Shown here: piece by piece, positions 8,695 to 34,531 of the stretch
Layout: every line of letters begins with the position of its first letter
Numbering within the stretch: position 1 is the stretch's first letter
Origin: Nitrospirota bacterium
Lineage (GTDB): Bacteria > Nitrospirota > Thermodesulfovibrionia > Thermodesulfovibrionales > JdFR-85
Reading direction: 5' to 3'
Assembly: GCA_015484595.1 (NCBI GenBank)
Contig: WFMM01000163.1
Span: forward strand, 1 to 52,870
DNA: 52,870 bases
Position numbers and translations under genes: made by a program
Notes under the pieces: model-generated
What the model saw: only the letters and a program-made list of their open reading frames with translations
Told to the model about the DNA's origin: nothing
The model's database searches: none

Positions 8695-8696
8695 TC

Positions 8697-9995: not shown

Positions 9996-10051
9996 TTTAA
10001 ATTATTAGATCGCAAGGAGGCAGGTAAAACCTGCCTCCGGCACTTTAAAAG

Positions 10052-10525: not shown

Positions 10526-10560
10526 CCTTTCACCTCCATCTTTAAAAAAATTCTAACCTC

Positions 10561-10616: not shown

Positions 10617-10796
10617 GTCGTCCTTTAGCATCCTGTATTTAGGCTCTTCAACCTTTTTCTTCCGCTTTGGCCTGTAATAATGAAACATTATCCATATAAA
10701 TGTAAGAACAAGGGTAGCCCCAAATATCAGATAAGCCCATCCATTCCAGCCCATCACTTCTCCTGTAAAGACCTTATATAGGTGATTACCTTCCAT
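10605..10796 (-). CDS. ccoQ: CcoQ-like small membrane subunit
   Basis: 63 aa, one TM, charged C-terminus, located between ccoO and ccoP. Confidence 0.65.
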
Positions 10797-11725: not shown

Positions 11726-11739
11726 GGCACCCTCCTTTC

Positions 11740-13158
11740 TCAGACAGTCTGTGGCTCGGGTTCGGTAAGGGTTTCAGGCTCTTTACGCGCTGTCATCACA
11801 AGGTTGTAAGCAAAGACCAGAATACCCACAAAGTAAATCAGTCCGCCCACTAACCTGATTATCCAGTAAGGGTGCATTGCAGCCACTACCTCAACAAAGC
11901 TATAGGTCAGCGAACCATCTGGATTTGTGGCCTTCCACATTGCACCCTGCTGTATACCAGCAATCCAGAGTGTTACAGTATAAAGGAGCTGACCTATCAA
12001 TATAAGATAAAAATGCAGATTTGCAAGTTTTATGCTGTATATCTCCTTTTTGTTGTAAATCCTTGGAAACATGTAATAGATAGAGGCAGATATTATCATG
12101 GTCACCCATCCCATGGTGCCCATGTGCACATGACCTATTACCCAGTCTGTATAATGGAAAAAGGCGGTAAGGGTTCTCAGGCCCTGAGTTGGGCCCTGAA
12201 CGGTCTGCAGCCCATAAAAGGTTATGCCAAAGATAAAGAACTTGGTCAGATAGTTTGACCTCATCAGATCCCATCTTCCTCTTAATGTGTAATAACCATT
12301 GACCACAGAGCCCCAGGATGGTGCAATCAGAAAGATACTAAAGGCAATACCAACGGTCTGAATCCACTCAGGAAGTGGCGTGAGCATCAGGTGGTGTGCA
12401 CCTGTCCAGAGGTAACCAAAAACAAGTGACCAGAAAGAGATGATCGATAGCCTGTGGCTGTATATTGGAAGATTGGTGGATTTAGGCAGAAAGTAATAAA
12501 ACATGGCAAGTATTGGCACGGTAAACACAAAGCCCACTGCATTATGACCATACCACCACTCAACATTAGCATCGTTTGCCCCTGCATACAGTGAATAGGA
12601 TTTAAAAAGATTAACAGGAACCTCAAGGTTGTTCACTATGTACAGGACCGCTACGGTAACAGTCATTGCAATTATGTACCAGAGCGAGATATACATCTGT
12701 TTTTCCTTCCTTTTGATCAGGGTGGCAAAGACATTGATTGCAAATATAACCCACATGATGACTACCACCACATCAAGGGGCCATTCAAGCTCTGCGTATT
12801 CTTTGGATGTGTTCATTCCTGCAAAGAGACTCAATGCTGCAAGGGCAATCGCAATGTTAAACAGGTAAAGGTGGAACTTAGCAAGCCCGGGAAAGGCAAT
12901 CCTCGTCCTTGTAAGCCTCTGAAGCATATAGTAGGTACAGGCAAAGATACCCGCAAGCCCAAAACCAAAGGCAAGTCCATTGGTGTGAACCACCCTTAAC
13001 CTGCCAAAGGTCAACCAGGGGGTAATATTCAGCTTAGGCATCACCATCTCAGCTGCAAGCCAGAGCCCGACCAGAAGGCCAACGATCAACCAGAACATGG
13101 CTGAGTAGGCGAACCCCCTGACCACCGAGTAATCATAACCGTTTTCCCTCATGCCCAT
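11740..13158 (-). CDS. ccoN: cbb3-type cytochrome c oxidase subunit I
   Basis: Multi-TM protein with [28 protein letters not shown] and [20 protein letters not shown]. Confidence 0.95.
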
Positions 13159-17190: not shown

Positions 17191-18984
17191 CTAAGATATC
17201 AAAGATACCCTGTGGTCATTAAGCTTCTGGAGGTTTAACTGTGCTGAAGGGACATTTACTCTGTCAGATTTCTCTACCATCCTCTCAGAGGATAAACCAT
17301 CATCAACTCTGAACCACTCAATGTTCTCCTTTAACCTGCCCGACAGGGACGCCAGTTCAAGAGATACATCCTTTAACTGATGCATTGCATTGACTGTTTC
17401 GTTTATCCCTGTGGAGATCTCATTCATATTCTGCACTATCTGCTCTGCTGCAGAGGATTGCTCGTCAGTGGCTGCTGCTATATGCTGAACCATCTCACTG
17501 GCCTTAATAGAAACCGCTTTAATAGATTTGAGGGACTGGCTGATCATATCCATAACCCTTACTCCCTTTTCAACTTCGTCCTTGCTATTCTTAACAACCA
17601 CTACAGACTGCTCTGCCTCATTCTGAATTATGCGAATCTTTTGAGCGATCTCATCAGATGACTTGGCAGTCTTTTCTGCAAGCTTCCTCACTTCATCAGC
17701 CACTACGGCAAACCCCCTTCCATGCTCACCCGCCCTCGCTGCCTCGATGGCAGCATTAAGTGCCAGGAGGTTAGTCTGCTCTGCAATATCTGTGATAACG
17801 GAGATGATCTCTCCAATTTCTTCAGAACTCTTTCCAAGAGTCTCTATGGTCTCAGCAGCATTATTCACTACCCCTGCGATCTTTCTTATCTCTTCTGCTG
17901 CATCTTCTGCCAGCTCCATGCTTGTTGTGGCAACATCCACTGCATCCTTCGAAGCCTTTGCTGCCTCTGCAGCGCTTCTTGCTACATCCATTACCGTTTG
18001 TGACATCTCAGTGGCAGCAGCTACCACCTGTTCTACCTGGCCTGATTGTGCACTTGTCGTAGCCGACAGGGTATCAGCTGTAGAGGAAAGCTCTTCAGCT
18101 GAGGAGGCAAGATTTAATATGCCCTCCTTTATCTGTCTGATTGAGCTCCTTATTCTCTGCCCCATCGTCCTGAAGGCATCTGCCATCTGACCAAGTTCAT
18201 CCCTGCCTCTTGATGTTATCTTGATATCACTAAACAATCCTTCTGACATCTGAAGTGATGCGCGGGATACATCATTAACAGGCCTTACGATTGCACCGGT
18301 TAGCAAAAACGAAATACCAATAAGCAACAGAATTACAACAGAGCCGCCTATTAAATAACCCTTTCTTATAAGGTCAGACTCATTTTTCATATCCCTTACC
18401 AGTTTTGGGTATACAGTACGCAGGATCTGTAGTGGGGTGCCCGTCTGATCCATGATATTATAATAGAGTTCTTCAAGGTCTCCATTTATAATTTCCTCTA
18501 CTTTATCCGTATTCCCCTGGGCAACATAGGGCAAAACCCTGTCCATCAGTAGTTTTTTGTACTGGTTCCAGGATTTGTTTGAATCCTTTATAGATGAAAA
18601 GATGGGAACCGCCCTGTCAAGTGAATGGCATGAGCCACAGTAAAGGTCACCCCTCTTATCTGGTTTAAAGGCTCCCTTTTGTACCTCCTTATACAGTGCA
18701 TCCGTTCTGTTTATAATAGACTCGATATTCTTTGTAACATCCCTGTCATAGCTATAGATCTGTGAGTAAAACAAACCTCTGACGAGGTTAACATTCATGC
18801 GTATCCTTGCCAGATTGTCTATCGTGTTTCTCTTCAGATCAATCCCTCTGTAGATTCTGCCTCCCACCTGAACCCTTAAAAAACTCCACTGACCAATGAT
18901 TATTCCAGCCACACAAGCGACGACGATACCGCCAAAGATAACAAAAAACTTCTTCCTTATAGAGAGATTTAAAAACCATTTCAT
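17191..18984 (-). CDS. methyl-accepting chemotaxis protein with c-type heme motif in the periplasmic sensor region
   Basis: Two TMs, HAMP, MCP signalling core [53 protein letters not shown] between the TMs. Confidence 0.92.
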
Positions 18985-19081: not shown

Positions 19082-19170
19082 GTCTGTACCCTTATTCACT
19101 GACAGTGGATACTGCCATGGAACAGACCTTCAATGGGGCAGTAAATATTGTATAATAAATGTGTAAATGG

Positions 19171-19240: not shown

Positions 19241-19900
19241 ATGCAAATAGAGGTGCTAAGAGAGGCAATCCTTAAAGGACAAAAGGATGCAGCCTGTGAA
19301 GCGGCACGGGCTTTGCTAAATGAGGGTTACAAAGTTGAGGATATCATTCATACAGGTCTGACCGAATCACTGAGATTGCTTGATGTTAAGTGCACCACTG
19401 AGGAGTTTAATCTTCTTGAGATAATGCTTTCTGGCAGGGCAATGATGGCTGTAATGGATGATGTTATAGCAGAGTGGCTTCCCTCAGCTACAGTTGCAAA
19501 AGACAATAGTGCATCCATTGTCTTGGGCACAATAAAAGGAGACATACATGAACTCGGTAAGCATGTGGTTAAGGTCATTCTAATCGCTGATGGATACAGG
19601 GTGGTTGATCTTGGAAAGGATGTGCCACCTTTGGCATTTGTTGAGTCAGCGGCAATGGAAGGTGCATCTTTCATTGGGGTAAGCTCTCTGATTACCCTTA
19701 CCATACCATATATAAGGGAGATCAAGAATCTTTTGCTCAGAGAGGGGCTTACCGATGTTCATGTTATCGCTGGTGGTGCTGCAATTCAGCAATCAGACAA
19801 AGAAGACCTTAATGTTGATTATGTAGCAAAAAACGCCTTTGATGGGCTTCATTATATTCAGAATGTTCTTTCTGGAATGCCTCCGGACAGCATAGAATGA
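19241..19900 (+). CDS. corrinoid (B12-binding) protein, MtaC/MtbC/MtvC-like
   Basis: Helical cap domain plus GTIKGDIHELGKHVV (DxHxxG-like cobalamin ligand motif), VSSLITLT and VIAGGAAI. Confidence 0.92.
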   Translation: MQIEVLREAILKGQKDAACEAARALLNEGYKVEDIIHTGLTESLRLLDVKCTTEEFNLLEIMLSGRAMMAVMDDVIAEWLPSATVAKDNSASIVLGTIKGDIHELGKHVVKVILIADGYRVVDLGKDVPPLAFVESAAMEGASFIGVSSLITLTIPYIREIKNLLLREGLTDVHVIAGGAAIQQSDKEDLNVDYVAKNAFDGLHYIQNVLSGMPPDSIE

Positions 19901-20916
19901 GTATCTTTGGTGATAAAATTAAAATGCTTCTTAGTGGAAAGCCCCTTTCAGAGGTTATCGTTATACCCGAGGTCTTTGGTTTCAGTGCAAGATTAATGGG
20001 GTATAAAATCAGGGACTATGTTACCGATGGAAGAATTATTGCTTCCTGTCAAATACAATGTCAGAAACAGATGGGTTATGACGCGGTTTTTGCCTTTGCT
20101 GACCTTTCAGTTGAGGCAGAGGCCCTGGGCTGCAAACTTAGCTATGAAGAAGATTCCTATCCAGCCGTATCAAGGCCGGCTGTAGAGGGTTACAATGAAT
20201 TAAAAAGACTCCGTTTTCCAGATCCTTACCGCGATGGAAGGATGCCTGTAATCATCGAGGCAGTCCGCTATCTGAGGGATGCAAAGAATGAAAACTGCTT
20301 GATTGCAGCCTGTATTATGGGGCCTATAAGTCTTGCATCTCAGTTAATGGGCCTTGAACAGTTGATTTATGCCATTGTGGACTCACCTGAATATGTAGAG
20401 AAGTTGCTTGATTTCACAACTGAGGTAGCAATTAGCTACGGTAGAGCCTTGATAGAAGAAGGGGCAGACCTTCCAATTGTCTTTGATCCTTCTGCATCAC
20501 CTCTGGTAGTGCCACCTCATGTCTTTCATAAATTTGAACTTCCCAGACTTAAACGCATTTATAGTTCCTTTAAAAAGGCCGGTGCCTCTGCCGCATGGAT
20601 AAGTATAGCAGGCAATACTATAAAAATACTCCCCTATTACAGCGATGCTGGAATAGAAATTGCAACAATTGATTATGTGGTGGACCTAAAGAAGGCATGC
20701 CAGTTATCAAAGGGGATAGTGATAAATGGCAATCTCAAGCCTTATTTGTTTGTTCATGCATCAGAAGAAGAGGTCCGTAATGAAGTGAGGAGATGTCTGG
20801 AAGATACAAGGGGATTTAATAGATACATTCTTGGCTCAGGATGTGAGATTCCCATTGAGGCAAAACCAGATAATATAGCAGCTATGGTAAGTGAGGCCAG
20901 GTGTTTTAAACCATGA
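19897..20916 (+). CDS. uroporphyrinogen decarboxylase-family corrinoid methyltransferase (MtaA/MtbA/MtvB-like)
   Basis: UroD-family fold motifs (DPSASPLVVPPHVFHKFELPRLKRIY, INGNLKPYLF, ILGSGCEIPIEAKPDNI); overlaps the corrinoid protein gene. Confidence 0.88.
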   Translation: MSIFGDKIKMLLSGKPLSEVIVIPEVFGFSARLMGYKIRDYVTDGRIIASCQIQCQKQMGYDAVFAFADLSVEAEALGCKLSYEEDSYPAVSRPAVEGYNELKRLRFPDPYRDGRMPVIIEAVRYLRDAKNENCLIAACIMGPISLASQLMGLEQLIYAIVDSPEYVEKLLDFTTEVAISYGRALIEEGADLPIVFDPSASPLVVPPHVFHKFELPRLKRIYSSFKKAGASAAWISIAGNTIKILPYYSDAGIEIATIDYVVDLKKACQLSKGIVINGNLKPYLFVHASEEEVRNEVRRCLEDTRGFNRYILGSGCEIPIEAKPDNIAAMVSEARCFKP

Positions 20917-21467
20917 ATATCGTGATATCCTGTAGTGTTTTAAAAAAAGAGGTTATGAGCATTATAAGGGGAAAAGATGATACCATGGCAGTATTTCTCC
21001 CTGCATCTTTGCACAAGACACCATTATTCCTGTCCCGTGAGATTAAAAGGATTATCGATAACAATGAAGTTGGGAAAAAGATACTCCTTTACGGCAGTTG
21101 TTGCTTCCTTAGAAGTTATAAGAAGGTTACTCCGGTTCCTGGCGTATCAGACTGTTTTGACCTCCTCTTGGGTATTACTAAAAGAAGGGAGATTCAAGAA
21201 AAAGAACCAGGCACATATCTTCTTTCCGCTGGTTGGATACAACAGGACGGCACCCCCTTTGAGAAGTTTCTTAGCCAAGGTGGCGGGTTTTCAATAAAGG
21301 ATTATAAATCTCTTGTTTATAGTAATTATAAGAGACTCTTATATGTCAAGAGTCTGGAGGATGATAATGAGTTTCGGGAAAGGGCAATGGCTTCAGCAGA
21401 GGCCTTTGGCTGGATTTATGAGGAGGTGAATGCCCAGATGGACATACTCAGAGGATTATTATGCTGA
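20913..21467 (+). CDS. DUF1638-like protein
   Basis: 184 aa Cys-containing protein, overlapping corrinoid methyltransferase genes; tentative family recognition. Confidence 0.6.
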   Translation: MNIVISCSVLKKEVMSIIRGKDDTMAVFLPASLHKTPLFLSREIKRIIDNNEVGKKILLYGSCCFLRSYKKVTPVPGVSDCFDLLLGITKRREIQEKEPGTYLLSAGWIQQDGTPFEKFLSQGGGFSIKDYKSLVYSNYKRLLYVKSLEDDNEFRERAMASAEAFGWIYEEVNAQMDILRGLLC

Positions 21468-23089
21468 TTAAGGTATTGCCTGAGGGCAAAGACATTACAG
21501 TCAAAAAGGGTGCTGTCTTGCTTGATGCCCTTACAGATGCGGGCATAGAGGTTCCTGTGCTCTGTAATCGCAATGGTGTATGTGGCAAATGTAAGGTAAT
21601 AGTCAGGGCAAAGGCTAACCATCCGCTTGATATAGAGCGTGTGATACTTGGACAGGAGGCCATCCAGAGAGGTTTCAGGCTTGCCTGCAAATGTATCCTT
21701 TATGGCGAAGGCACCGTTTCCATACCTGTTCCAGAAAGGCTTGAATTGATGGAGACTGCCGAGAGTAAGGAGATCACAAAGATAAAGAAGGGGCTATATC
21801 CATATAGTGTAGTTGGGCAAATAAAACAGGGTCTGTATATAGCTATTGATATGGGAACCACCACCTTGAGTGGATATCTTATTGATGGTGATAGCACTGT
21901 GATTTCTCACCTGAACCTCCTAAATCCAACAACCCTTTATGGTGCTGATGTTATAACACTGCTTGGGTATATTCAACAGCGGAGAGATGGCTTTAAAAAG
22001 ATAAGAAGTGCACTTCTTTCAGGAATTATAAGGGTGATAAGTGCCCTTCTTGAGAAGTCAGGTAAGGATGCACAGGATGTAATAAGGATTGGGGTATGTG
22101 GAAATACCGTAATCCAGAATATATTTCTTGGACTAAACCCTGTTGAGATAGGTCTGTATCCTTACAGGGCGCCCCGTCTGGAAGCCTTTGTTGGCAGTTT
22201 AAGCGAAATAGGTGGGTTTAAATTATCAGGGCTTTCGCCTGATGTTGAGGTAATGGTCCCACCTGCAGTTAGTGGTTTCATTGGTGGCGATGTGATTTGC
22301 GGACTTCTCTACACAGGACTTTTAAATATCCAACCTGCATTATATATTGATCTGGGCACTAATGGTGAAATAGTTTTGAATGCAGGAGAGAGGGTCTTTG
22401 CTGGTTCCTCCAGCGCAGGGCCTGCCTTTGAAGCCTTTAAGATTGGCTGTGGAATGAGGGCGGCCGTAGGTGCGATAGAATCTGTTCGGATAAAGAATAA
22501 AGATGTATTTTACACAGTTATCGGGGGAGTGCAGCCCTCAGGCTTGTGTGGAACAGGTATCGTCTCTGCTATCTCTTCCCTCATCAGGATAGGTTCACTG
22601 GAAGAAAAGGGGCACATAAAAGAGGTGGCACCTATTAGAAAGATCCACAATGGGATTTTCGTCGTTGCCACAGGATCAGAGACAGCCACATCAGAGCCTA
22701 TAAGCATTACCGACAGGGATGTGGAAGTGGTTCAGCAGGCAAAGGCAGCCTTTGCCACTGGCGTAAAGATCATGCTCAGCAAGGCAGGGCTGAAGGATGG
22801 TGCCCTAAAAGGCATATATATTGCAGGAGCATTTGGTAGTCGTCTCAGTCCAGAGGACATTAAAGATATAGGGATACTGCCCTATGGCATTAAAGGTAAG
22901 ATAGAGACTGTGGGCAATGCAGCAGGGGCAGGTCTTGTAAACCTTATTCTGTCGGATGAAGCATTTTCTGACGCTGTAAGGATTGCTAAAAAGATAGACA
23001 CAATACAGTTCAGCAATGAGGAAGGGTATGAAGATTTATTCATTGATAACCTTTTTTTCAGGAGGACCCATATAGATGCATGCCACTAA
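21461..23089 (+). CDS. RACo-like corrinoid reactivating ATPase (2Fe-2S ferredoxin + ASKHA domain)
   Basis: N-terminal CNRNGVCGKCKVIV…C 2Fe-2S motif; YIAIDMGTTTLSGYLID and YIDLGTNGEIVL. Confidence 0.92.
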   Translation: MLIKVLPEGKDITVKKGAVLLDALTDAGIEVPVLCNRNGVCGKCKVIVRAKANHPLDIERVILGQEAIQRGFRLACKCILYGEGTVSIPVPERLELMETAESKEITKIKKGLYPYSVVGQIKQGLYIAIDMGTTTLSGYLIDGDSTVISHLNLLNPTTLYGADVITLLGYIQQRRDGFKKIRSALLSGIIRVISALLEKSGKDAQDVIRIGVCGNTVIQNIFLGLNPVEIGLYPYRAPRLEAFVGSLSEIGGFKLSGLSPDVEVMVPPAVSGFIGGDVICGLLYTGLLNIQPALYIDLGTNGEIVLNAGERVFAGSSSAGPAFEAFKIGCGMRAAVGAIESVRIKNKDVFYTVIGGVQPSGLCGTGIVSAISSLIRIGSLEEKGHIKEVAPIRKIHNGIFVVATGSETATSEPISITDRDVEVVQQAKAAFATGVKIMLSKAGLKDGALKGIYIAGAFGSRLSPEDIKDIGILPYGIKGKIETVGNAAGAGLVNLILSDEAFSDAVRIAKKIDTIQFSNEEGYEDLFIDNLFFRRTHIDACH

Positions 23090-24377
23090 AATGGATGTAA
23101 AGGACTGGTCTTACAATGCATTAAAAAGTATCGTAAAACTTAACAATATTATAGGGTATCTCCCGGTAAGCCTTGAAAACGTTCTTGAAGCCGTGATGGC
23201 AGAGGTTCAAAGGCTATACAATCCCTTAATGTGTTGTATTCACATGGTTGATGAAGATGGTAAGATGCAACTTGTGGCATATAAATCCAAGAAGTCATCC
23301 TCCCCTGACCTGCATTTGCATGATTCCGCAGAATACTGTCCATCGCTAAGGGATGGCCTTCCTTACATATCTGAAGAGGACAATCTTTGCCCAAATAGAA
23401 GGACAGAGGAAGGAGGACCCTTCTATCAGATCTGCATACCCCTTATTACAGGTAAGGAACAGTATGGCACAATATCCTGTCAGCGCAAAACCCCTCTTGA
23501 TTACGAGGAGATGGATGTCCTTTTAGCAATTGCTAATCAGGTATCTATGGCTATTCAACGGAGTCAGCTCTTTGAGAAACTAAAAAAAGAAAAGGATGAG
23601 ATATACATGGCTTATAAAAAGATACACTCCCTTAACATGCAGTTGCAGGAAAAGATAAAACAACTACAGGAAGCCAACAAAAGACTCATCCAGGCTGAAA
23701 GGATTGCCGCAGTGGGCAGAATGGCGGCCTCTCTTTCACATGAACTAAATAACCCTATGAGTATAATACTAAACAGAATTGAGTGTATGAGGATTGAAGG
23801 ATATGACAGGTGCATGACAGACTCTATTAAAAAGGACATCGATGTCATATATGCTTATGCCTCCAAGGTCTCATCGATTGTGCAGGATATGTTGATGTTT
23901 TCAAGGTCGTCACCGGAAAGATTCAGCCCTATTGACATAACAGAGATAATCAGAGCTGCGATTACATTCTACATGGAAGAGATATCAAAGGCTGGATGTG
24001 AAGTGATATTTGATCCAACTAAGAGGGTTCCTCTGATCAATGGGGACCCTGAAAGGCTTGAAATGCTTTTTCAGAACCTAATCCGGAACGCCATTGATGC
24101 AATGCCTGATGGTGGAAGGGTCTTCATCAACTACTCGGAAAATAAGAATTCAATCGAGATAACCATTCGTGATGAAGGGGTGGGTATAGAACCATCTTTG
24201 ATGGAAAGGATCTTTGAACCCTTTTTCACCACAAAGAAACCTGGCAAAGGGACAGGACTTGGGCTTACCATATGCTACTCAATAGTCAAAGAACATGGTG
24301 GAGAGATAGCCGTTGAAAGCACACCAGGGCAAGGGACCATCTTTAAATTAACATTTCCAGTATACGAAAATGAGTAG
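23076..24377 (+). CDS. soluble GAF-domain sensor histidine kinase
   Basis: GAF region, H-box SLSHELNNPMSII, N box NLIRNAIDAMPDGG, G boxes; no TM. Overlaps RACo and the next gene. Confidence 0.9.
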   Translation: MHATKMDVKDWSYNALKSIVKLNNIIGYLPVSLENVLEAVMAEVQRLYNPLMCCIHMVDEDGKMQLVAYKSKKSSSPDLHLHDSAEYCPSLRDGLPYISEEDNLCPNRRTEEGGPFYQICIPLITGKEQYGTISCQRKTPLDYEEMDVLLAIANQVSMAIQRSQLFEKLKKEKDEIYMAYKKIHSLNMQLQEKIKQLQEANKRLIQAERIAAVGRMAASLSHELNNPMSIILNRIECMRIEGYDRCMTDSIKKDIDVIYAYASKVSSIVQDMLMFSRSSPERFSPIDITEIIRAAITFYMEEISKAGCEVIFDPTKRVPLINGDPERLEMLFQNLIRNAIDAMPDGGRVFINYSENKNSIEITIRDEGVGIEPSLMERIFEPFFTTKKPGKGTGLGLTICYSIVKEHGGEIAVESTPGQGTIFKLTFPVYENE

Positions 24378-25779
24378 CGTAAGGGTGATGGTTATAGAAG
24401 ACGAGATTCCCATGCTTGAGAACTACACCAGGATGGTAAAAGGCATGGGCTATGAATGCGTGCCCTATAGTGACAGTGTTAAGGCCATCAAGGATATTAA
24501 AAAGCAAAGGCCTGATGTAATAATAGCAGATCTAAAGATGCCTGGCATGGATGGCTTTGAACTGCTTGAGTTCATAAAATCAAACATGCCTGATGTTCCT
24601 GTTTTGCTTATCACAGCCTATGCCAGTATCTCTACAGCGGTTGAGGCAGTTAAAAAAGGGGCATTTGATTTTATACCGAAGCCCTTTACACTCACACAAC
24701 TTCGGGTATCAATCCAGAAGGCCATAAGGCACAGGAATATGCTGGAGGAAAACAGAAGGCTCAAGGAACTCCTCAGATTATTCGGGCCTGAGAAGATCGT
24801 TTTCCGTAGTTACAGGATGATAGAAGTAGTGGATCTGGCAAAGACAGTAGCACCAACAGATGCTAATATTCTAATAACTGGTGAAAGTGGCACTGGTAAA
24901 GAACTCCTTGCCCGAACGATTCACAGGATGAGTGCCAGAAGGGATGGGCCGTTTATAGTGGTGGACTGCACCGCAATCCCTGAAGGGCTGCTGGAAAGTG
25001 AATTATTTGGATACGAAAAGGGGGCATTTACAGGAGCAGTCAGTGCCAAGGCTGGCCTTCTGGAAGAGGCAGAAGGTGGAACCCTGTTCCTTGATGAAGT
25101 TGGAGAGCTTCCCCTTACACTACAGGTAAAACTCCTCAGGGTGATACAGGAGAGAACCCTTCGCAGGCTCGGTGGTCAGAAGACAAGGCATATTGACATA
25201 AGATGGATTGCTGCAACAAACAGAAACCTCCGTGAAGCAGTAAAGAATGGTAAATTCAGAGAAGACCTCTTTTATCGTCTTAATGTTGTCAACATCAACA
25301 TCCCTCCTCTGAGGGAGAGGGTAGAGGACATCCCACTGCTTGCCAATACCTTTCTTAATCTCTTTTCGAGCGCCTACAACAAGGAGATTGAGACCATAGC
25401 ACCCGATGCAATGGCATACCTGGAGAGTTACAAATGGCCAGGCAATGTCAGGGAACTTAAAAACGTCATAGAGAGGGCAGTGATCCTCTCAAGGCGGAAT
25501 ACCCTCACCGTAGACCTCCTTCCACCAGAAATAAGGTCCAATTTACATGGCCGGCCTGTAATAACAGAGGGACTGCTGCCATATAGAGAGGCAAAAGAAC
25601 GAATTATCACATCCTTCGAAAAGGAGTACTTTGAAAAGCTCCTAAGCAAAACCGGTGGTAATATATCCAGGGCTGCAGAGCTGGCAGGCATTAACCGAAG
25701 AACCATCCACAGGCTCCTGAAAAAGCTCTCCATTGATAGGACATCTATGTCCCAGCGTGACATAAATAGCACATATTGA
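24370..25779 (+). CDS. NtrC-family sigma-54-dependent response regulator
   Basis: Receiver domain, ILITGESGTGKELLARTIH, ELFGYEKGAFTGAVS (GAFTGA) and C-terminal Fis-type HTH. Confidence 0.95.
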   Translation: MSSVRVMVIEDEIPMLENYTRMVKGMGYECVPYSDSVKAIKDIKKQRPDVIIADLKMPGMDGFELLEFIKSNMPDVPVLLITAYASISTAVEAVKKGAFDFIPKPFTLTQLRVSIQKAIRHRNMLEENRRLKELLRLFGPEKIVFRSYRMIEVVDLAKTVAPTDANILITGESGTGKELLARTIHRMSARRDGPFIVVDCTAIPEGLLESELFGYEKGAFTGAVSAKAGLLEEAEGGTLFLDEVGELPLTLQVKLLRVIQERTLRRLGGQKTRHIDIRWIAATNRNLREAVKNGKFREDLFYRLNVVNINIPPLRERVEDIPLLANTFLNLFSSAYNKEIETIAPDAMAYLESYKWPGNVRELKNVIERAVILSRRNTLTVDLLPPEIRSNLHGRPVITEGLLPYREAKERIITSFEKEYFEKLLSKTGGNISRAAELAGINRRTIHRLLKKLSIDRTSMSQRDINSTY

Positions 25780-25895
25780 AATTTTAATTTTAGATTAAAG
25801 ACAATATACAGATTTAGCCACTCAATAGGGACAAATAAGTCACACTAACGGTTTAATTCCTACCTAAATACAGCCATTTTATCACCAAAATGTAA

Positions 25896-25910
25896 GGCAC
25901 GCAAATTGCA
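25896..25910 (+). promoter_or_regulatory. sigma-54 (-24/-12) promoter upstream of nosZ
   Basis: GGCAC-GCAAA-TTGCA, i.e. GG-N10-GC; about 130 nt upstream of the nosZ ATG. Confidence 0.75.
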
Positions 25911-26038
25911 TTTATATCAAAATAGTAGTTAAATTGCTTGATATATATTATGTTCATAGCAGGGAAGGGAGGTGGGAAAATAGAAGGAGTGTCATGTTAT
26001 TGCTTTTTTAATAAGGACTTAAGAAAGGGGGAGAAGTT

Positions 26039-27970
26039 ATGAAGAAGACACGGGTAATATGGAAGTTATTATTAATGATGGTGGTTTTACTATTTGGTGT
26101 TAGCACTGTCTTTGCTCAGTCTGAGTTGAGAAAGGTCATGAAAGAAAGAGGACTAACCGAGAAGGACCTTCTGGCAGCAGCAAAGACATATACGCCCACG
26201 GGCAAGCATGACCCTTACATTGTGTTTTCCTCAGGTGGTCAGAGCGGTCAGATCCTTGTTTACGGTGTGCCATCAATGAGGATATACAAGGTGCTTGCGG
26301 TTTTTACGCCTGAGCCATGGCAGGGTTATGGTTATGATGATGAGAGTAAAAAGGTGCTTGAGGGAGGCAAGGTCCGTGGCAGGTACATCACCTGGGGCGA
26401 CTCCCATCATCCAGCCCTGTCGGAGACAAACGGCGATTACGATGGACAGTACCTTTTTATCAATGACAAGGCACATGCAAGGGTAGCGGTTATTGATCTG
26501 AAAGACTTTGTTACAAAACAGATAGTAAAAAATCCGATCATGAAGTCAGACCATGGAGGTTGTTTTGTAACGCCAAATACAAAGTATGTCCTTGAGACTA
26601 CCCAGTATGCAGCACCTTTTGACAACAAATACCATTCCATCAAGGAGTACAACAAGGTTTTCAGGGGGGCAATGACCTTCTGGAGGTTTGACCGTAAGAA
26701 GGGAAGGATCATCCCTGAGAAGTCCTTCTCGGTTGAGCTTCCACCTTATATGCAGGATCTGGCTGACGCAGGCAAGGGGATATCTGATGGATGGGCATTC
26801 ACCAACTCCTGGAACTCTGAGCGCTATACCGGTGGTATTGAAGAGGGCAATCCACCATTTGAGGCAGGATGTTCTGCCAATGATACGGACTATCTTCACG
26901 TGATTAACTGGAAGGGTGTAGAAAAGGAGGTAGAGGCAGGGCACTACAAGCTTATAAATGGCCATAAGGTAGTAACCCTTAAGACACTGGTTAAGAAAGG
27001 GCTTATTTATCTTATCCCAGAGCCAAAGAGCCCCCACGGTGTGGATGTCTCACCTTCAGGCAGGTACATAATCGTAAGTGGAAAACTTGACACCCATGCC
27101 TCAGTCTATGACTTCAAGAAGATATTAAACCTCATTAAGAAGAAGGATTTCATCGGAAAGGACCCCTATGGTATCCCGATCCTAAGCATGAGAAAATCAC
27201 TGCATGGTCAGGTGGAACTGGGACTTGGGCCTCTTCATACCCAGTTTGACAGCAAAGATGGTATAGTTTACACCTCTCTATATGTGGATTCAGCAGTGGT
27301 CAAATGGGACTACAAGAGACTGAAGGTCCTGGACAAGATACAGGTGCATTACAACATCGGTCACCTTGTCACCCCCCATGGCGATACAGTTCATCCCAGA
27401 GGCCACTATCTGATTGCACTGAACAAACTGGCAGTTGACAGGTTTAACAACATCGGTCCTCTTCACCCACAGAACCATCAGCTGATTGATATAAGTGGTA
27501 AAAAGATGCAGATGCTCTATGACTTACCCATACCCATCGGTGAACCTCACTATGCCGTGATGATAGATGCCAAACTACTGAAACCTGAAGTCAGATACAA
27601 GCTTGGATGGAACCCCTATGAAGATTCTCGTTCACCCTACAGGACGCTTCCCGGCAGGGAACGCATAGTAAGAAAGGGCAACCGGGTAGAGGTATTTGCA
27701 ACAGCAATCCGTAGTCATATTAACCCTGAAAGGATAGTGGTGAAAAAGGGTGACATTGTAACCATACATGTGACAAACCTTGAAAGGGCCGAGGATGAAA
27801 CGCACGGCTTTGGAATCTATGGTTACAATGTGCAGTTTAGCCTTGAGCCTGGTAAGACATCATCTGCAACATTTGTGGCTGACAAGGAAGGGGTCTTCCC
27901 ATATTACTGTACAGAGTTCTGTTCAGCCCTTCACCTTGAGATGTTTGGTTATCTGATAGTAAAACCATAG
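26039..27970 (+). CDS. nosZ: nitrous-oxide reductase, clade II, Sec-type signal peptide
   Basis: Sec-like signal MKKTRVIWKLLLMMVVLLFGVSTVFAQ, no twin-arginine motif; C-terminal CuA motif YYCTEFCSALHLEM; nos gene context. Confidence 0.96.
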   Translation: MKKTRVIWKLLLMMVVLLFGVSTVFAQSELRKVMKERGLTEKDLLAAAKTYTPTGKHDPYIVFSSGGQSGQILVYGVPSMRIYKVLAVFTPEPWQGYGYDDESKKVLEGGKVRGRYITWGDSHHPALSETNGDYDGQYLFINDKAHARVAVIDLKDFVTKQIVKNPIMKSDHGGCFVTPNTKYVLETTQYAAPFDNKYHSIKEYNKVFRGAMTFWRFDRKKGRIIPEKSFSVELPPYMQDLADAGKGISDGWAFTNSWNSERYTGGIEEGNPPFEAGCSANDTDYLHVINWKGVEKEVEAGHYKLINGHKVVTLKTLVKKGLIYLIPEPKSPHGVDVSPSGRYIIVSGKLDTHASVYDFKKILNLIKKKDFIGKDPYGIPILSMRKSLHGQVELGLGPLHTQFDSKDGIVYTSLYVDSAVVKWDYKRLKVLDKIQVHYNIGHLVTPHGDTVHPRGHYLIALNKLAVDRFNNIGPLHPQNHQLIDISGKKMQMLYDLPIPIGEPHYAVMIDAKLLKPEVRYKLGWNPYEDSRSPYRTLPGRERIVRKGNRVEVFATAIRSHINPERIVVKKGDIVTIHVTNLERAEDETHGFGIYGYNVQFSLEPGKTSSATFVADKEGVFPYYCTEFCSALHLEMFGYLIVKP

Positions 27971-27983
27971 AAAGGAGGGGATC

Positions 27984-28385
27984 ATGACGATAAAAAGAGG
28001 TATACTATTATCTATTGTGGCCCTGATAATAGGTCTGACCTTCTCAGCAGGTGTTGTGCTTGCACAGGAGGTCAACTACAAGGCCAAGTATAAAGAGGTG
28101 ATGAAGAAGTGTGCAGATACACAGGCGGTTATAGATCAGGTCGTTCAATGGTTGAAGGCCCATCATTACGAAAAGTACAAATACCCAAAGGCAGTGGTTG
28201 AGGACGCCCTTGATCAGGCAAAATACGCTGCTCAGACAAAGAAGAAGGCCGAATCCTTGGCAGCAAAGGGGAATTACAAGGCTGCCTATGGATGGGCAAA
28301 CATGTACTGGCAGTACCAGGTTAAGGTGGCAACAAAGGGGCTACAGGCAAAACAGATGATCCTTGATATCGAGGCCAAGAAGTAG
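27984..28385 (+). CDS. secreted Lys/Ala-rich protein of unknown function in the nos operon
   Basis: 133 aa with signal peptide (…FSAGVVLAQE), 13 nt after nosZ, preceded by GGAGGGG. Confidence 0.8.
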   Translation: MTIKRGILLSIVALIIGLTFSAGVVLAQEVNYKAKYKEVMKKCADTQAVIDQVVQWLKAHHYEKYKYPKAVVEDALDQAKYAAQTKKKAESLAAKGNYKAAYGWANMYWQYQVKVATKGLQAKQMILDIEAKK

Positions 28386-28425
28386 TCTTCAAAACCTTTT
28401 CCTCAAAGGCTGATAACCTGTTGCC

Positions 28426-28455
28426 GGGCAGCCTGTCTTATACAGCAGGCTGCCC
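28426..28455 (+). other. strong intercistronic RNA hairpin
   Basis: GGGCAGCCTG-TCTTATACAG-CAGGCTGCCC, perfect 10-bp stem; no following U-run. Confidence 0.85.
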
Positions 28456-28521
28456 ACCCTTACAAAGATTTGACTTTAATAAATCCTGCCAGAGCAAGGC
28501 AATATTTAAGGAGGTGCAATA

Positions 28522-28878
28522 ATGAAGAGACTTTACGCAATAGTGCTAATAGTGTTAACAATAGTCTGGATGTCTTTGACAGCTTGGGCAGGTCAAGAAG
28601 AGGCATCAAAACTCAGAGATGCTTTTGATGAGAACGGCTGTAGTGGATGCCACATAATCGGTAAGGATTACAATGGACCTGACCTTACAGGCATCACAGA
28701 GGTGAGATCCAAAGAGTGGATTATTGACTTCATCATGAATCCCAAGAAACATTACAGTGATCCAGAAGTAAAGGCCCTAATAAGGGCATTTAACCTCTAT
28801 ATGCCAAACCAGGGTGTTACAAAGGAGGATGCCGAATTGATTTACAAATATCTTAAGTCTATATCAAAATCAAAGTAG
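28522..28878 (+). CDS. nosC: periplasmic monoheme c-type cytochrome of the nos cluster
   Basis: Signal peptide and NGCSGCHIIGKDYNGPDLTGI. Confidence 0.8.
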   Translation: MKRLYAIVLIVLTIVWMSLTAWAGQEEASKLRDAFDENGCSGCHIIGKDYNGPDLTGITEVRSKEWIIDFIMNPKKHYSDPEVKALIRAFNLYMPNQGVTKEDAELIYKYLKSISKSK

Positions 28879-28886
28879 AGGGACCG

Positions 28887-29702
28887 ATGAAGCGTAGTGT
28901 TTGGCTGTTCAGGCTGTATGCAGTGTTGGCTCTGTTGATACTCACTGTAACCATGGTCTGGCCACACATCTTTACCGTTGAGGAATACGAGGAAAAGATA
29001 GCAGAGGGTATGATAACGAACATATATGGGATGAGAAAGGACATCGTCGGAAAGATGAGGAGATGGGCAAAATTGATACCTGATGCCACGATTACAATTG
29101 GAAACAGGGTCTTTTCCTTTGACGGACTTCCTATATGGAGGGTGGTGCTTGATGCACCCCAATATCCAAGGACATCCTTTCCCGAGGGCATTGCGGTGAA
29201 TGTGTATTTTACAGGGCCAAAAAATGCCTGTAAGAACACAGAGTGTCTCCATGAGATAGATACCCTGAACCATTGGGTAGGGATGGAACCAACCACATCT
29301 GTGGCTCCAATTGAAAAGAAGATAGCCCCATTCAGTTATATTATATTCGCCGTTATGCTTGTTGTGTTTATAATTACCTCAAAAAGGGTCCATGGATGGC
29401 TGTTGATTCTACCGATAATGCTACCCTTCCTCTATGCACTGGATTACTCCTTCTGGAATCACTGGCTTGGTTTTAACCTCCATGAATGGGCATCATTCAA
29501 GATCAGACCCTTTACCCCAATGGTTTTTGGTATAGGCAAGGTTGCACAGTTTACCGTTAGGATGCACCCAAATGTTGGCTTCTTTCTTTTGTTGGTCTCT
29601 TCTGCATTACTGTTTCTTGCCTATATGTCCAAGAAAAAGGCCGTTCAAGGAAGTGATCTGGAAATCCTGCTTGAAATCAAACGGTCGGGAAAGCAAGGAT
29701 GA
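28887..29702 (+). CDS. nosB: NosB-like membrane protein
   Basis: Multi-TM protein between nosZ/cytochrome and nosD, the position of nosB in clade II clusters. Confidence 0.65.
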   Translation: MKRSVWLFRLYAVLALLILTVTMVWPHIFTVEEYEEKIAEGMITNIYGMRKDIVGKMRRWAKLIPDATITIGNRVFSFDGLPIWRVVLDAPQYPRTSFPEGIAVNVYFTGPKNACKNTECLHEIDTLNHWVGMEPTTSVAPIEKKIAPFSYIIFAVMLVVFIITSKRVHGWLLILPIMLPFLYALDYSFWNHWLGFNLHEWASFKIRPFTPMVFGIGKVAQFTVRMHPNVGFFLLLVSSALLFLAYMSKKKAVQGSDLEILLEIKRSGKQG

Positions 29703-30970
29703 GACTCCTGATAACACTGATCATCGCCTGTTTATACCTCGTTGCTCCTGGATATGCAGCAGAAGACCTGCAGGTGATAGTAGATGCTGCCCATGAAGGC
29801 TCTATTGTCACGCTCTCACCAGGGGTTTATCAGGGTCCGGTGGTTATAAAGAAGAGGATCACTTTAGAGGGTAAATCCCGTGCAGTAATTGATGGTGGTG
29901 GCAAGGGAACGGTCATAACTGTAGAGGCCGACGGCGTTGTTATAGAGGGTCTCATAATCCAGAACTCAGGTTCAAGATACGACACCATAGACGCGGGTAT
30001 CAGGTTGAAGAGTTCAAACAACAGGGTTGTAAACAATGTTATAAGGAATTGCCTCTTTGGCATAGACCTTCACAGCGCAAACAACAACATTATTGAGGGT
30101 AACGAGGTCTCCTCAAAGCCATATAGTCTTGGCCTTAGAGGAGATGCAATCAGACTTTGGTGGAGCAATAAAAACATACTGAAGGACAACTTTGTCCATG
30201 ATGCAAGGGACTTTGTTGTATGGTACTCAAGCGACAATATCATAGAAAACAATGTGGGGATAAACTCCCGATACAGCATACACTTCATGTACTCCCATAA
30301 GAACATAGTGAGAGATAATTATTTCCGTTCAAACAGTGTTGGTATATATGTTATGTATGCCCATGGAATAACCCTACAGGGCAATACCATTGAGCACTCA
30401 GCAGGTAGCACAGGCATGGGTATAGGCATAAAGGAGGCCTCTGGTGTGATTGTAAGATACAACCGGATGATCAACTGTGCAAGAGGGGTTTTCATTGATG
30501 AATCGCCCTTTGAACCTGGTTCCAGGGACATATTTGAGGGAAATGATTTTTTGTACAATGCGGTTGCGGTTTACTTCAATACAGACAGCACAAGGGTCAA
30601 CAATATCTTTGTCAACAATGTGTTTTCAGGAAATATTGAGGATGTAGCAGTAACAGGCACTCGTGGAGTGCCAAAGGGCAGGTGGGAGAGAAATTACTGG
30701 GACAAATACAGGGGATTCGATACAAATGGTGATGGTTACGGTGATATGCCATATGAATTGTACTATTATTCTGATAAACTCTGGAACAATCATCCTGAAC
30801 TGAGGTTTTTTATTGCATCACCTGTTATGTCTTTTCTTGATTTTATACAGAGACTTGCCCCGTTTTCTGAACCTGATCTTATACTGGTTGATAAGTCCCC
30901 GATGATAAAGGTTCCCAGAAGGCATTATAGGTATTTTGTCAAGAAACTAAGGGGCACTAATTCAGGGTAG
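29699..30970 (+). CDS. nosD: NosD, periplasmic copper-site maturation protein (beta-helix)
   Basis: Parallel beta-helix repeats (NNRVVNNVIRNCLFGIDLHSANNNIIEGNEV…), overlapping upstream gene. Confidence 0.92.
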   Translation: MRLLITLIIACLYLVAPGYAAEDLQVIVDAAHEGSIVTLSPGVYQGPVVIKKRITLEGKSRAVIDGGGKGTVITVEADGVVIEGLIIQNSGSRYDTIDAGIRLKSSNNRVVNNVIRNCLFGIDLHSANNNIIEGNEVSSKPYSLGLRGDAIRLWWSNKNILKDNFVHDARDFVVWYSSDNIIENNVGINSRYSIHFMYSHKNIVRDNYFRSNSVGIYVMYAHGITLQGNTIEHSAGSTGMGIGIKEASGVIVRYNRMINCARGVFIDESPFEPGSRDIFEGNDFLYNAVAVYFNTDSTRVNNIFVNNVFSGNIEDVAVTGTRGVPKGRWERNYWDKYRGFDTNGDGYGDMPYELYYYSDKLWNNHPELRFFIASPVMSFLDFIQRLAPFSEPDLILVDKSPMIKVPRRHYRYFVKKLRGTNSG

Positions 30971-31014
30971 TGTTAAAATGATTTTGAATTGTCTTTAAGT
31001 TGACGGAGGTTATT

Positions 31015-31743
31015 ATGGGTATCAACGACGGCAGTGAAATCCCCTATACTGGAATGACGAGAAGGGATTTTATCAAGATGGCATCTATCGTAGTGGTGGG
31101 TTCGGTCACGGGAATAGTCACGGTCCCTTTACTTGCAAAGGGAAGTCTTCTTCTCAGACCGCCAGGCTCAATTGAGGAAAAACCTTTCCTTGCTTCCTGT
31201 ATAAAGTGTGGTCAGTGTGTCCAGATATGTCCCGTGCATGCCATACGACTGTCTGATTTTAACAATGGTCTTATTAATATAGGCACACCATATATCAATG
31301 CCCGAGCAGGTGCTTGTGACTTTTCATGCACAGGGGTTCAATGTGTGCTTGCCTGCCCTACAGGGGCACTGGACCACAGGATAGCAAAAAAGCCTGACGA
31401 GGTGAGGATTGGCCTTGCAAGGCTTTATCCAGAGCGATGTCTCTCTGTGAAAGGGCAACTATATACAGGCCCAGAGCCTAAAAACTACAACCCTGACCTT
31501 TACAGATGGAAGGTTAAACCAGAAGAGTACAGAGAACACATATGCCGCCTGTGCGTGGATAAGTGTCCTATTGGGGCAAAGGCGATAACCATGGAGGAGA
31601 TTAAGGCCCCTGATGGAAGGGTGTACTTAAGGCCGACTGTTCAGGAGGGATGCACTGGCTGTGGTGTGTGTGAGATGGTCTGTCCTGTGCAGGAAGCTGC
31701 CATTAAGGTAATTCCCAGGATGAAATGGAGGAAAAGGGCATGA
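31015..31743 (+). CDS. nosG: NosG, ferredoxin-type protein
   Basis: TRRDFIK, CIKCGQCVQICPVHAI, CRLCVDKCPIGAK, CTGCGVCEMVCPV. Start set at the ATG after GGAGG. Confidence 0.88.
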   Translation: MGINDGSEIPYTGMTRRDFIKMASIVVVGSVTGIVTVPLLAKGSLLLRPPGSIEEKPFLASCIKCGQCVQICPVHAIRLSDFNNGLINIGTPYINARAGACDFSCTGVQCVLACPTGALDHRIAKKPDEVRIGLARLYPERCLSVKGQLYTGPEPKNYNPDLYRWKVKPEEYREHICRLCVDKCPIGAKAITMEEIKAPDGRVYLRPTVQEGCTGCGVCEMVCPVQEAAIKVIPRMKWRKRA

Positions 31744-32564
31744 GACCAGCATACAGGAGTTATAGATTAATGAGATGGATTGTAATGGCTTCTGTGTTGC
31801 TGCTGTTTCACTTTTCTTTTAAATGGAAACTTGACCTGCTGACAGGAACACTCAATGGCTCCCGTTTTTCAGGATTTCACCTTGAGGATATCTTTACGAC
31901 CCTTCAGTTGTTGTTTTCCTTTGGCAGGCTCGAGACAAATGTCCTGATCGGGTTTATTACCATCGTTGTAGTGTATTTCCTCGTTGGTGGAAGGACATTC
32001 TGTGCCTGGATATGTCCCTTTAATCTCCTTGCCGAATGGTCCGAGATCCTGCATTTGTGGCTTGTCCGGAAAGGGCTTGTAAAGGAAAGGCACTTCAGAC
32101 ATACCATAAGATATGCATTTTTTATTCTTTTCCTTATCCTTGCATATCTTACAGGTTATCTGTATTTTGAGACATTTAATCCCATAGGGATGATCGTCAG
32201 GTCAGCCACTTACGGGATGGAGATAGCCCTTGTTTTTGTGGGCTTGATACTGCTTGTGGAGGTTCTTTTTATCAGACGGGCATGGTGCAGGTATGTATGC
32301 CCTGTAGGGACGGCCTATGGGCTCCTTGGTAAGATAGCCATGCTCAGGGTGAAGTTTATCCCTGTTGATTGTCCGCACTGCAATGTGTGTTACGATGTCT
32401 GCATAGCTCCTGAGGCACTTAAAAAGGTTCACGAGAAGGCTGAGAACTCTGGAAAGGCAGAATTTGTAACCCATATGGAGTGCACAAATTGTGGAAGGTG
32501 TATAGATGTCTGCCGCAAGGGGCTGTTAAAATATGGTGTAAGATATATTGACAGGATAACATAG
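31725..32564 (+). CDS. nosH: NosH, NapH-type membrane ferredoxin
   Basis: FCAWICPFNLL, WCRYVCPVGTAYGLLG, CTNCGRCIDVC, multiple TMs. Confidence 0.88.
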   Translation: MEEKGMRPAYRSYRLMRWIVMASVLLLFHFSFKWKLDLLTGTLNGSRFSGFHLEDIFTTLQLLFSFGRLETNVLIGFITIVVVYFLVGGRTFCAWICPFNLLAEWSEILHLWLVRKGLVKERHFRHTIRYAFFILFLILAYLTGYLYFETFNPIGMIVRSATYGMEIALVFVGLILLVEVLFIRRAWCRYVCPVGTAYGLLGKIAMLRVKFIPVDCPHCNVCYDVCIAPEALKKVHEKAENSGKAEFVTHMECTNCGRCIDVCRKGLLKYGVRYIDRIT

Positions 32565-32565
32565 G

Positions 32566-33201
32566 ATGATTATAGCACAAGGACTGAGCAAGAGGTATGG
32601 TCAGATACTGGCCCTTGATAATGTATCACTGAGGATCAGACAGGGTGAAAGGATAACCATTATCGGTAGAAACGGCTCAGGAAAGACGACCTTTTTCAGG
32701 TGCCTGCTTGGTCTGTGTAGGTATGATGGAAGGTTGACGGTAGCCGGAATGGAGCCATGTTTAAAAAGAGGAGATGTCCTTAAGATGGTAGCCTATGTTC
32801 CTCAGATCCCTCCACCGTTAAAACTTTCGGTAAAGGATATAATTCAATTGACCTCCTCACTATGTGATTTAAAAGAAAGTGATGTTATAGGTTATGCCTC
32901 AGCTTTAGGGCTCGATATCAAAGAAAATCAGAAAAAACAGTTCTCCAAGCTCTCAGGTGGCATGAAGCAGAAACTTCTTATATCCATTGCACTGAGCCGA
33001 CGACCCCTGATACTGATAATGGACGAACCCTCTGCAAATCTTGACCCTGAGGGAAGGAGTGCACTATACAGTATATTTAATGAACTGCCCGATGATACGA
33101 CCCTGCTTTTAAGCAGTCACAGGGCCGATGAACTTAAAGGCTTAACCACCAGGGTAATAGAGTTAGATATGGGAAGAATTATAAAGGACGAAGAACTTTA
33201 A
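32566..33201 (+). CDS. nosF: NosF, ABC transporter ATPase
   Basis: IIGRNGSGKTTFFR, KLSGGMKQKLLISIAL, LILIMDEPSANLDPEG. Confidence 0.9.
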   Translation: MIIAQGLSKRYGQILALDNVSLRIRQGERITIIGRNGSGKTTFFRCLLGLCRYDGRLTVAGMEPCLKRGDVLKMVAYVPQIPPPLKLSVKDIIQLTSSLCDLKESDVIGYASALGLDIKENQKKQFSKLSGGMKQKLLISIALSRRPLILIMDEPSANLDPEGRSALYSIFNELPDDTTLLLSSHRADELKGLTTRVIELDMGRIIKDEEL

Positions 33202-33214
33202 AAAGAGGTGTGCT

Positions 33215-33703
33215 ATGAAGAGACCTTTAATGGCCATATTCTTGTTATCAATCATGTTGTTGCCATGTGGCTGTAAGAGGGGGCCAAAGAAGATACAACC
33301 ATCACCAATAGTGTGGGATAGGGATGTCTGCACAAGATGTCTTATGGCAATAAGTGATAGGAGATACGCAGCCGAGATTGTAAATCCAGACACCGGTCGA
33401 GTGTATAAGTTTGATGACATAGGCTGTGCCATCCTCTGGCTTAAATCAAAAAGCCCACCCTGGCAGAAACGGGCTGTGTTCTTTGTTACTGACAGAAAGA
33501 CAGGCCAGTGGCTTGATGCCAGGAAGGCCTATTTTACAACTGACGACATTACGCCCATGGGATTTGGTTTTGGAGCTACAAAAAGCCAATTACCTGGAAC
33601 CGTCGGTTTTGATGAAATGAAGAGGCGTGTTCTCACAGGTGAGACTGGACAAAAGAGATACCTTCAACAACTCAAGGGGCATAAAGGAGAGGATAGAAAG
33701 TAG
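33215..33703 (+). CDS. nosL: NosL, copper-binding lipoprotein
   Basis: Lipobox MLLPCGC; CTRCLMAISDRRYAAEI; YKFDDIGCAILW. Confidence 0.88.
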   Translation: MKRPLMAIFLLSIMLLPCGCKRGPKKIQPSPIVWDRDVCTRCLMAISDRRYAAEIVNPDTGRVYKFDDIGCAILWLKSKSPPWQKRAVFFVTDRKTGQWLDARKAYFTTDDITPMGFGFGATKSQLPGTVGFDEMKRRVLTGETGQKRYLQQLKGHKGEDRK

Positions 33704-34531
33704 ATGAAATCCCTAATGTTAATAATGAAGATGGATATCAAGGAGTCCATAAGGGCAAAGTGGTTTCACTTGTACCTGATTGTTTTTGGTGGGCTCGTTC
33801 TGTTGCTTTACAAACTTGGCGTAACAGAGTCAGAGGTTATGGGTTTTACTGGTGTTAGCAGATTACTGGTTACCTATATAGAACTATCCATTGCTGTCCT
33901 GCCCCTGTTTATAATGGTAGCCACTGTGAGGACGATTGTGGGTGATAAGGAGTCAAATGTGCTGGAGTACTATCTCTCTCTGCCAGTGCAGTTGAAGAGT
34001 TTCTTCTGGGGCCGATTTGCGGGCAGATTTTTTTCAGTAGTTATACCTGTTATAGCTGGTATTACATCTGCTGTGCTGTGGGGAATATACTCTGGCCTAA
34101 ATGTCAGGTGGGATATATATGTCCTGTATTGTGCGATTGTTATATCCCTCTCAATATGTTTCCTTGGTATCGCATTTCTGATATCAACGGTTGTGAGGAG
34201 GCAAGAAACAGCCCTTGTGGTTGTATTTATCCTATGGTTAACCATGCTTGTCTTTATTGATATAGTGCTTATCGGGGTCTTTATCCAGTATGGACTGCCC
34301 CTTAAGATTATAATAGGTATCGCCCTTGCCAACCCTATACAGGTATTCAGGATAGCAGCTCTCGTCCTATTTGACCCAAGGCTTTCTGTAATGGGTCCTT
34401 CAGCCTATGTAATACTTGATATCTTCGGAAGATGGGGATACATCTTATATGCCATCCTTTATCCGGTTGTAATCGGAGTAATTACAGCAGTCACGGGATT
34501 TTATATATTCAGAAAAAAAGACATTGTATAA
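33704..34531 (+). CDS. nosY: NosY, ABC transporter permease
   Basis: Six-TM ABC-2-type permease following nosF/nosL. Confidence 0.88.
   Translation: MKSLMLIMKMDIKESIRAKWFHLYLIVFGGLVLLLYKLGVTESEVMGFTGVSRLLVTYIELSIAVLPLFIMVATVRTIVGDKESNVLEYYLSLPVQLKSFFWGRFAGRFFSVVIPVIAGITSAVLWGIYSGLNVRWDIYVLYCAIVISLSICFLGIAFLISTVVRRQETALVVVFILWLTMLVFIDIVLIGVFIQYGLPLKIIIGIALANPIQVFRIAALVLFDPRLSVMGPSAYVILDIFGRWGYILYAILYPVVIGVITAVTGFYIFRKKDIV

Follow-up and report, generated by a model that had tools for sequence, protein, structure and literature searches.

A conserved corrinoid protein and two-component cassette predicted to control nitrous oxide reduction genes in Nitrospirota

Soluble coenzyme M (CoM) methyltransferase systems (MtaA/MtbA/CmuA) and type 1 mlp gene clusters, for which Mlp2 and Mlp3 together are the minimum (PMC10418091), bring together a URO-D homologue, a corrinoid protein and a RamA/RACo activator. 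A similar combination was found in a six-gene cassette immediately upstream of nosZ, the nitrous oxide (N2O) reductase gene, on contig WFMM01000163.1 of a Nitrospirota bacterium (positions 1 to 52,870; this whole stretch of 52,870 nucleotides is called the window). The cassette differs from those systems in having one homologue, not two or three, no HxC zinc motif, a histidine kinase and an NtrC-type activator within the operon, and nos genes adjoining. With its single URO-D gene it lacks the Mlp2 plus Mlp3 pair of a type 1 mlp cluster, and the text of PMC10418091 mentions neither a histidine kinase nor a two-component system.

Four further groups of described systems were compared. NtrC/AtoC-type systems have in common with the cassette a receiver D54, GAFTGA, a Fis-type helix-turn-helix (HTH), a -24/-12 promoter and tandem palindromes at least about 50 nt upstream; the cassette adds a corrinoid protein and a methyltransferase homologue as conserved partners, with nos as the predicted target. 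Known nos regulation (NNR/DNR of the Crp/Fnr family, NssA-C of Wolinella, and NosR) also switches nosZ, on nitrogen oxides or anoxia, whereas the cassette would act through sigma-54 and a two-component system, although several relatives also have a Crp-type gene in the cluster. In CarH, a B12-dependent light-sensing repressor, a B12-binding domain likewise serves regulation, but CarH carries its own DNA-binding domain, while the corrinoid protein of the cassette (CorP) is separate and matches CarH weakly (19.8 bits). MsmS-type sensor kinases of Methanosarcina are haem-based, lie beside corrinoid methyltransferase genes and control methyltransferase genes; the cassette kinase also adjoins corrinoid methyltransferase-type genes, but has a GAF domain and predicted sites at nos. 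A literature search, with most subscription journals beyond reach, returned no corrinoid two-component system and no link between nos and corrinoids. Comparison of related genomes suggested that a corrinoid-linked two-component system, its ligand left open, probably controls nos. The cassette and its predicted target were annotated as follows.

19151 to 19156, + strand: sigma-70-like -10 box TATAAT, read by eye and carrying no significance figure.
19241 to 19900, + strand: CorP, corrinoid (B12-binding) protein, by domains B12-binding_2 and B12-binding.
19897 to 20916, + strand: MtaA/CmuA-like URO-D-fold methyltransferase homologue in which the HxC zinc ligands are absent, by domain, sequence and structure model.
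20913 to 21467, + strand: DUF1638 protein, of a family linked to B12 reactivation (PMC5764234), by domain match; optional in the cassette.
21461 to 23089, + strand: RACo-type reductive activator of corrinoid proteins (2Fe-2S and ASKHA), by domains; optional in the cassette.
23076 to 24377, + strand: cytosolic GAF histidine kinase (GAF, HisKA and HATPase), by domains and alignment.
24370 to 25779, + strand: NtrC-type sigma-54 activator (receiver, Sigma54_activat and HTH_8, with GAFTGA).
25738 to 25753, + strand: predicted upstream activator site AGGACATCTATGTCCC, a motif match lying within the ntrC-type gene, at its 3' end.
25828 to 25843, + strand: predicted upstream activator site GGGACAAATAAGTCAC, a motif match.
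25895 to 25910, + strand: -24/-12 (sigma-54) promoter AGGCACGCAAATTGCA, by 11 of 12 consensus positions.
26039 to 27970, + strand: nosZ, Sec-dependent clade II nitrous oxide reductase, by TIGR04246 score and copper ligands.
27984 to 34531, + strand: rest of the clade II nos cluster, the predicted target operon, by gene order, sequence and NCBIfam.

The original prediction had described six genes overlapping end to end, with a clade II nosZ next behind a sigma-54 promoter. All six genes and every overlap were verified at 19241-25779, and the domain matches agreed with the functions given. nosZ starts 259 nt after the NtrC-type gene; its product scored 878.6 bits against TIGR04246 (Sec-dependent, clade II; cut-off 625) and keeps the seven CuZ histidines (H123, H124, H172, H333, H400, H442 and H504) and the CuA ligands (H589, C624, C628, H632 and M635). 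The window has 2 matches of this quality to the -24/-12 consensus where 0.26 would be expected, and the second of them lies inside a gene; 11 of 12 positions were also matched in genomes G074, G328 and, by eye, G839. Upstream of the first cassette gene stands the -10 box at 19151-19156, where several relatives have TGATATAAT. This box, the two palindromes at 25738 and 25828 and the zinc-ligand loss described below are additions to the original prediction. The genes at 27984-34531 encode a 133-aa protein, a c-type cytochrome, and NosB-like, NosD, NosG-like, NosH-like, NosF, NosL-like and NosY proteins; NosD scored above its NCBIfam cut-off, and the NosB, NosG, NosH and NosL names were assigned from gene order and sequence, with no family match. 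The window cluster (26039-34531) is the sole clade II nos cluster of its family, the other nosZ-bearing members being clade I. Its closest relative seen was in another genome of the class, G386 (L199 3583-11881; clade II NosZ 75% identical), which has nosR and is without the cassette.

Recurrence was assessed across the 230 genomes of the window's class, with a CorP orthologue defined by a profile score >340 bits. CorP orthologues were present in 11 genomes (G000, G002, G003, G005, G010, G011, G013, G026, G074, G328 and G839) and nosZ in 27, with both in 9 (Fisher p = 5e-8, shared ancestry ignored). Within the window's family, CorP was found in 7 of 8 genomes with nosZ and 0 of 9 without (p = 4e-4, shared ancestry likewise ignored). 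The core unit, CorP-MtaA homologue-kinase-NtrC, lies directly beside nos in G000, G074, G003, G005 and G328, and in G002 across a contig end that falls inside the kinase, where we infer the join. Conserved linkage in related genomes had been set as a check, and it held in these six, five of which have a clade I nosZ about 35% identical to the clade II enzyme of the window. The core was taken as four genes because RACo and DUF1638 are optional: both occur within the cassette in the window, G074 and G026 only, and neither is part of the cassette in G003, G005, G002, G011, G328, G839, G010 and G013.

The best RACo relative among 120 related genomes was that of G074, a member of another family with nosZ on the same contig. 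There the whole six-gene cassette has the same order as in the window, and is followed on the same strand by genes for a GltD-like flavoprotein, a Rieske protein, cytochrome b and cytochromes c, then nosZ, nosR, nosD and nos transporter genes; this nosZ is clade I (dependent on twin-arginine translocation; 824 bits against TIGR04244) and about 35% identical to the window NosZ. In G003, G005 and G328, CorP, the MtaA homologue, the kinase and NtrC are followed by the nos region. G010 and G013 have the unit, then a Crp-type gene and a redox module, and that module stands directly upstream of nosZ in G011, whose cassette is on a different contig from the nos region. In G839 the cassette and sites (L189 1792-18388) precede a GltD-like/Rieske/cytochrome b set and a nitrite oxidoreductase (NXR)-type molybdenum enzyme, which matched Kuenenia NxrA over its full length (923 bits). 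All ten NtrC-containing cassettes adjoin nitrogen-oxide genes or share a genome with nosZ. Crp/Fnr-type genes lie between the cassette (or sites) and nos at L157 4812-5516, L159 12460-13173, L162 2095-2865 and L147 3247-4008, and TGTAAC-type palindromes (e.g. TGTAACTTAAGTTACTG) lie farther downstream in relatives with this gene, which is absent in the window.

The regulator keeps the receiver D54, GAFTGA and Fis-type HTH (HTH_8) of NtrC-type proteins. The ten cassette regulators formed one group with 100/100 support against 15 NtrC-type paralogues of the window's own genome, the window regulator being the deepest branch within it. On this evidence the regulator is an inherited unit, whereas the adjoining nos genes differ (clade II in the window, clade I elsewhere).

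When intergenic regions were compared, the nos units proved to be preceded by a palindrome, GNGRCA-N4-TGYCNC. The motif was derived from seven of ten loci, and the remaining three (G839, G010 and G013), read only afterwards, held 10 sites when up to one mismatch was allowed; no more than 3 arose in any of 5000 dinucleotide shuffles. In each of the ten loci the motif forms a cluster ahead of the target, and in G011 three sites precede the nos region that is unlinked to the cassette. Upstream of the target, cassette genomes had 34 mostly clustered sites in 53 kb (0.64 per kb). In 15 nosZ genomes without the cassette, the 96 kb upstream of nosZ held 10, at scattered positions (0.10 per kb). The two window sites (P = 0.0003 for that stretch) are 90 nt apart, the G002 pair 89 nt, and the nearer window site lies 51 nt from the -24 element. 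Genome-wide, the exact motif was at most modestly above a backwards control, and isolated sites elsewhere mean little. No motif was present at the cassettes' own promoters in 9 of 10 cases, the exception being G074. Autoregulation only, an outcome named beforehand in which the regulator serves just its own operon, was rejected on this ground, the predicted sites standing at the nos promoter. The NtrC-type regulator very probably controls nos, as judged from these conserved sites and the linkage.

Accidental adjacency, which a single window could not exclude and which 18 nosZ genomes of the class without the cassette might seem to favour, is extremely improbable given the six genomes that share the arrangement across two nosZ clades, the Fisher result (not corrected for shared ancestry) and the sites in trans. 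A further explanation is that no sensing link exists, nos shielding corrinoid metabolism from N2O while the genes merely travel together. N2O attacks MetH-bound cobalamin and inactivates cobalamin-dependent methionine synthase (PMC13059711), and in the 11 cassette genomes no cobalamin-independent MetE (TIGR01371) was found; the MetH profile gave no full-length match above cut-off in the same genomes. Protection would, however, leave unexplained why a kinase and an activator are core members, and why sites stand at nos promoters, also in G011 where the genes are apart, and it was considered very unlikely.

CorP has the B12-binding cap and Rossmann domains with DxHxxG expected of a methyltransferase corrinoid protein. 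The cobalt-binding motif (D101-H103-G106) is invariant in 8 orthologues, and the score against TIGR02370 (methyltransferase corrinoid protein) was 113.6 bits, below the 215.3 cut-off. The RACo protein carries 2Fe-2S ferredoxin, RACo middle and ASKHA C-terminal domains, by which it is a RACo-type reductive activase, and ATP-dependent reduction of Co(II) to Co(I) is predicted for it; RACo (RamA-like) and DUF1638 proteins reactivate B12 (PMC5764234, PMC12478193). The original prediction had proposed a corrinoid-to-nosZ circuit in which the corrinoid protein, or the load on its reactivator, could report N2O. Nos as the target was retained on the strength of linkage and sites, but RACo load was rejected as the conserved signal, RACo being absent from most linked cassettes.

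The MtaA homologue has the URO-D/MtaA fold (model with a predicted local distance difference test score of 91; best PDB match 4ay7, template modelling score 0.89-0.90) and scored 180.4 bits against TIGR01463, below the 235.4 cut-off. In the window it reads WISIAG where LHICG is expected (HIC to SIA), so that the distal Cys (GSGCE) alone is kept. The HxC zinc site was lost in 19 of 19 readable kinase-linked homologues, with Cys changed to Ala in 17 and to Thr in 2; the first position was still His in 4 of the distant ones. Ordinary MtaA genes of G007 and G061, from the same order, retain the zinc motif HTC. Because the zinc site is lost in the kinase-linked homologues, a thiol-activating methyltransferase role is unlikely.

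The loss also bears on a methyl-transfer pathway, in which a methyl donor would feed electrons to N2O respiration, the kinase sensing the donor and the regulator coordinating use of donor and acceptor. CorP, the MtaA homologue and RACo do resemble catabolic methyltransferase clusters, many of which are regulated by sigma-54 or kinases. However, the sole methyltransferase homologue has lost its zinc ligands, none of the cassettes examined contained a further methyltransferase or a tetrahydrofolate methyltransferase, most linked cassettes are without RACo, and the activator sites stand at nos, G074 alone having any at the corrinoid genes. This pathway was therefore judged unlikely.

No membrane segment was detected in the GAF kinase by hydropathy, and a cytosolic kinase suits a freely diffusing gas as signal. 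Residues C88, C105 and C120 are invariant among the cassette kinases. A structure model of the kinase (predicted template modelling score 0.43) was not used, and a kinase-based scan of the named genomes, which gave only matches of about 30-37% to generic kinases, was uninformative.

In the preferred reading, judged probable, the six genes form a two-component system with a corrinoid input and the nos operon as output. Basal cassette expression would come from the sigma-70-like promoter. CorP bound to the zinc-less MtaA homologue would form the chemical sensor, and RACo and DUF1638 would hold its corrinoid as Co(I), the state attacked by N2O. Oxidation of the Co(I) corrinoid, most likely by N2O, would produce an altered state that changes GAF kinase activity through protein contact. 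The kinase, as expected from its family, would phosphorylate the NtrC-type regulator, which is predicted to bind the GNGRCA-N4-TGYCNC palindromes and drive nosZ from the -24/-12 promoter at 25895, switching on N2O respiration. CorP is moderately likely to be the sensory input, and N2O is a plausible natural signal at somewhat below even odds. A bolder reading, to which a probability of roughly 0.35 was assigned, makes the cassette a dedicated N2O sensor, one member of a broader and so far undescribed group of two-component systems with corrinoid input that extends to Desulfobacterota and Chloroflexota.

Alternatively, the same circuit may respond to another signal: nitric oxide (NO), nitrite/nitrate, O2 or a general oxidation of the low-potential pool. 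It would be perceived by the corrinoid or by the GAF domain with its cysteines, and the circuit would then turn on the nitrogen-oxide respiration of the genome. NO binds Co(II) corrinoids, the three GAF cysteines are invariant, and in G839 the cassette and sites precede an NXR-type enzyme. On the other hand, 9 of 11 cassettes are in nosZ genomes, a GAF domain alone leaves the conserved corrinoid genes unexplained, and N2O is the nitrogen oxide known for selective attack on cobalamin-bound enzymes (PMC13059711). A different signal was rated a real possibility, though less likely than not.

Several observations weigh against the preferred reading. G839 has no nosZ, and G026, which has CorP through kinase, is without both NtrC and nosZ; a signal other than N2O is therefore conceivable. 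Relatives in other phyla pair corrinoid proteins with kinases away from nos, and 18 nosZ genomes of the class have no cassette. Each window site has one mismatch to the motif, and the nine exact copies in the window's genome all lie outside the window. The -12 element departs from GC in G002, G003, G005, G010 and G013. C88, C105 and C120 might themselves bind a metal or form a redox centre, and GAF domains have other ligands. Contact between the corrinoid protein and the kinase is putative, suggested by their co-inheritance.

Wider scans with CorP covered 395 Desulfobacterota, 201 Chloroflexota and 35 mixed genomes, and returned corrinoid-kinase modules, none of which adjoined nos. The more distant corrinoid proteins, from Desulfobacterota, Chloroflexota and further genomes of the class, have as neighbours an MtaA homologue, in most cases RACo, and either a histidine kinase or a receiver. 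Modules without nos, comprising a corrinoid protein, a zinc-less MtaA homologue, usually RACo, and a kinase with or without receiver/NtrC, were located at L172 7537-14740, L175 8330-14471, L174 49-3481, L193 7764-12016, L194 2563-8646, L197 5599-10710 and L198 7102-11993. The MtaA homologue and RACo are fused in G660, and form one 961-aa protein in L175. As the pairing occurs without nos in distant genomes, it looks older than its nitrogen-oxide link, which leaves room for other signals.

Other genes of the window were also recorded. A chemoreceptor adjoining the cassette (17191-18984) has CGSCH (CxxCH) in its sensory part, and a separate sensor kinase at 42130-43695 has CAECH (CxxCH) in its own; both may bind c-type haem. 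On the minus strand, 6053-13158 holds cbb3-type oxidase genes (CcoN, CcoO and CcoP, by sequence), CcoG, FixH-like genes and a PAS kinase, and an Rrf2-type regulator gene adjoins this set.

A mechanism for N2O sensing in bacteria has been described as still to be identified (PMC11539149), and the candidates in current work are Crp/Fnr proteins, to which no sensing chemistry is attached. Among cellular cofactors, Co(I) corrinoid is the one known to react with N2O. A conserved unit of corrinoid protein, kinase and activator, with predicted sites at nos promoters, therefore brings the question within reach of a test on a single purified system. If the proposed circuit is true, corrinoid proteins would gain a signalling role beyond light sensing and methyl transfer, and there would be a handle on when N2O-consuming bacteria turn on their sink.

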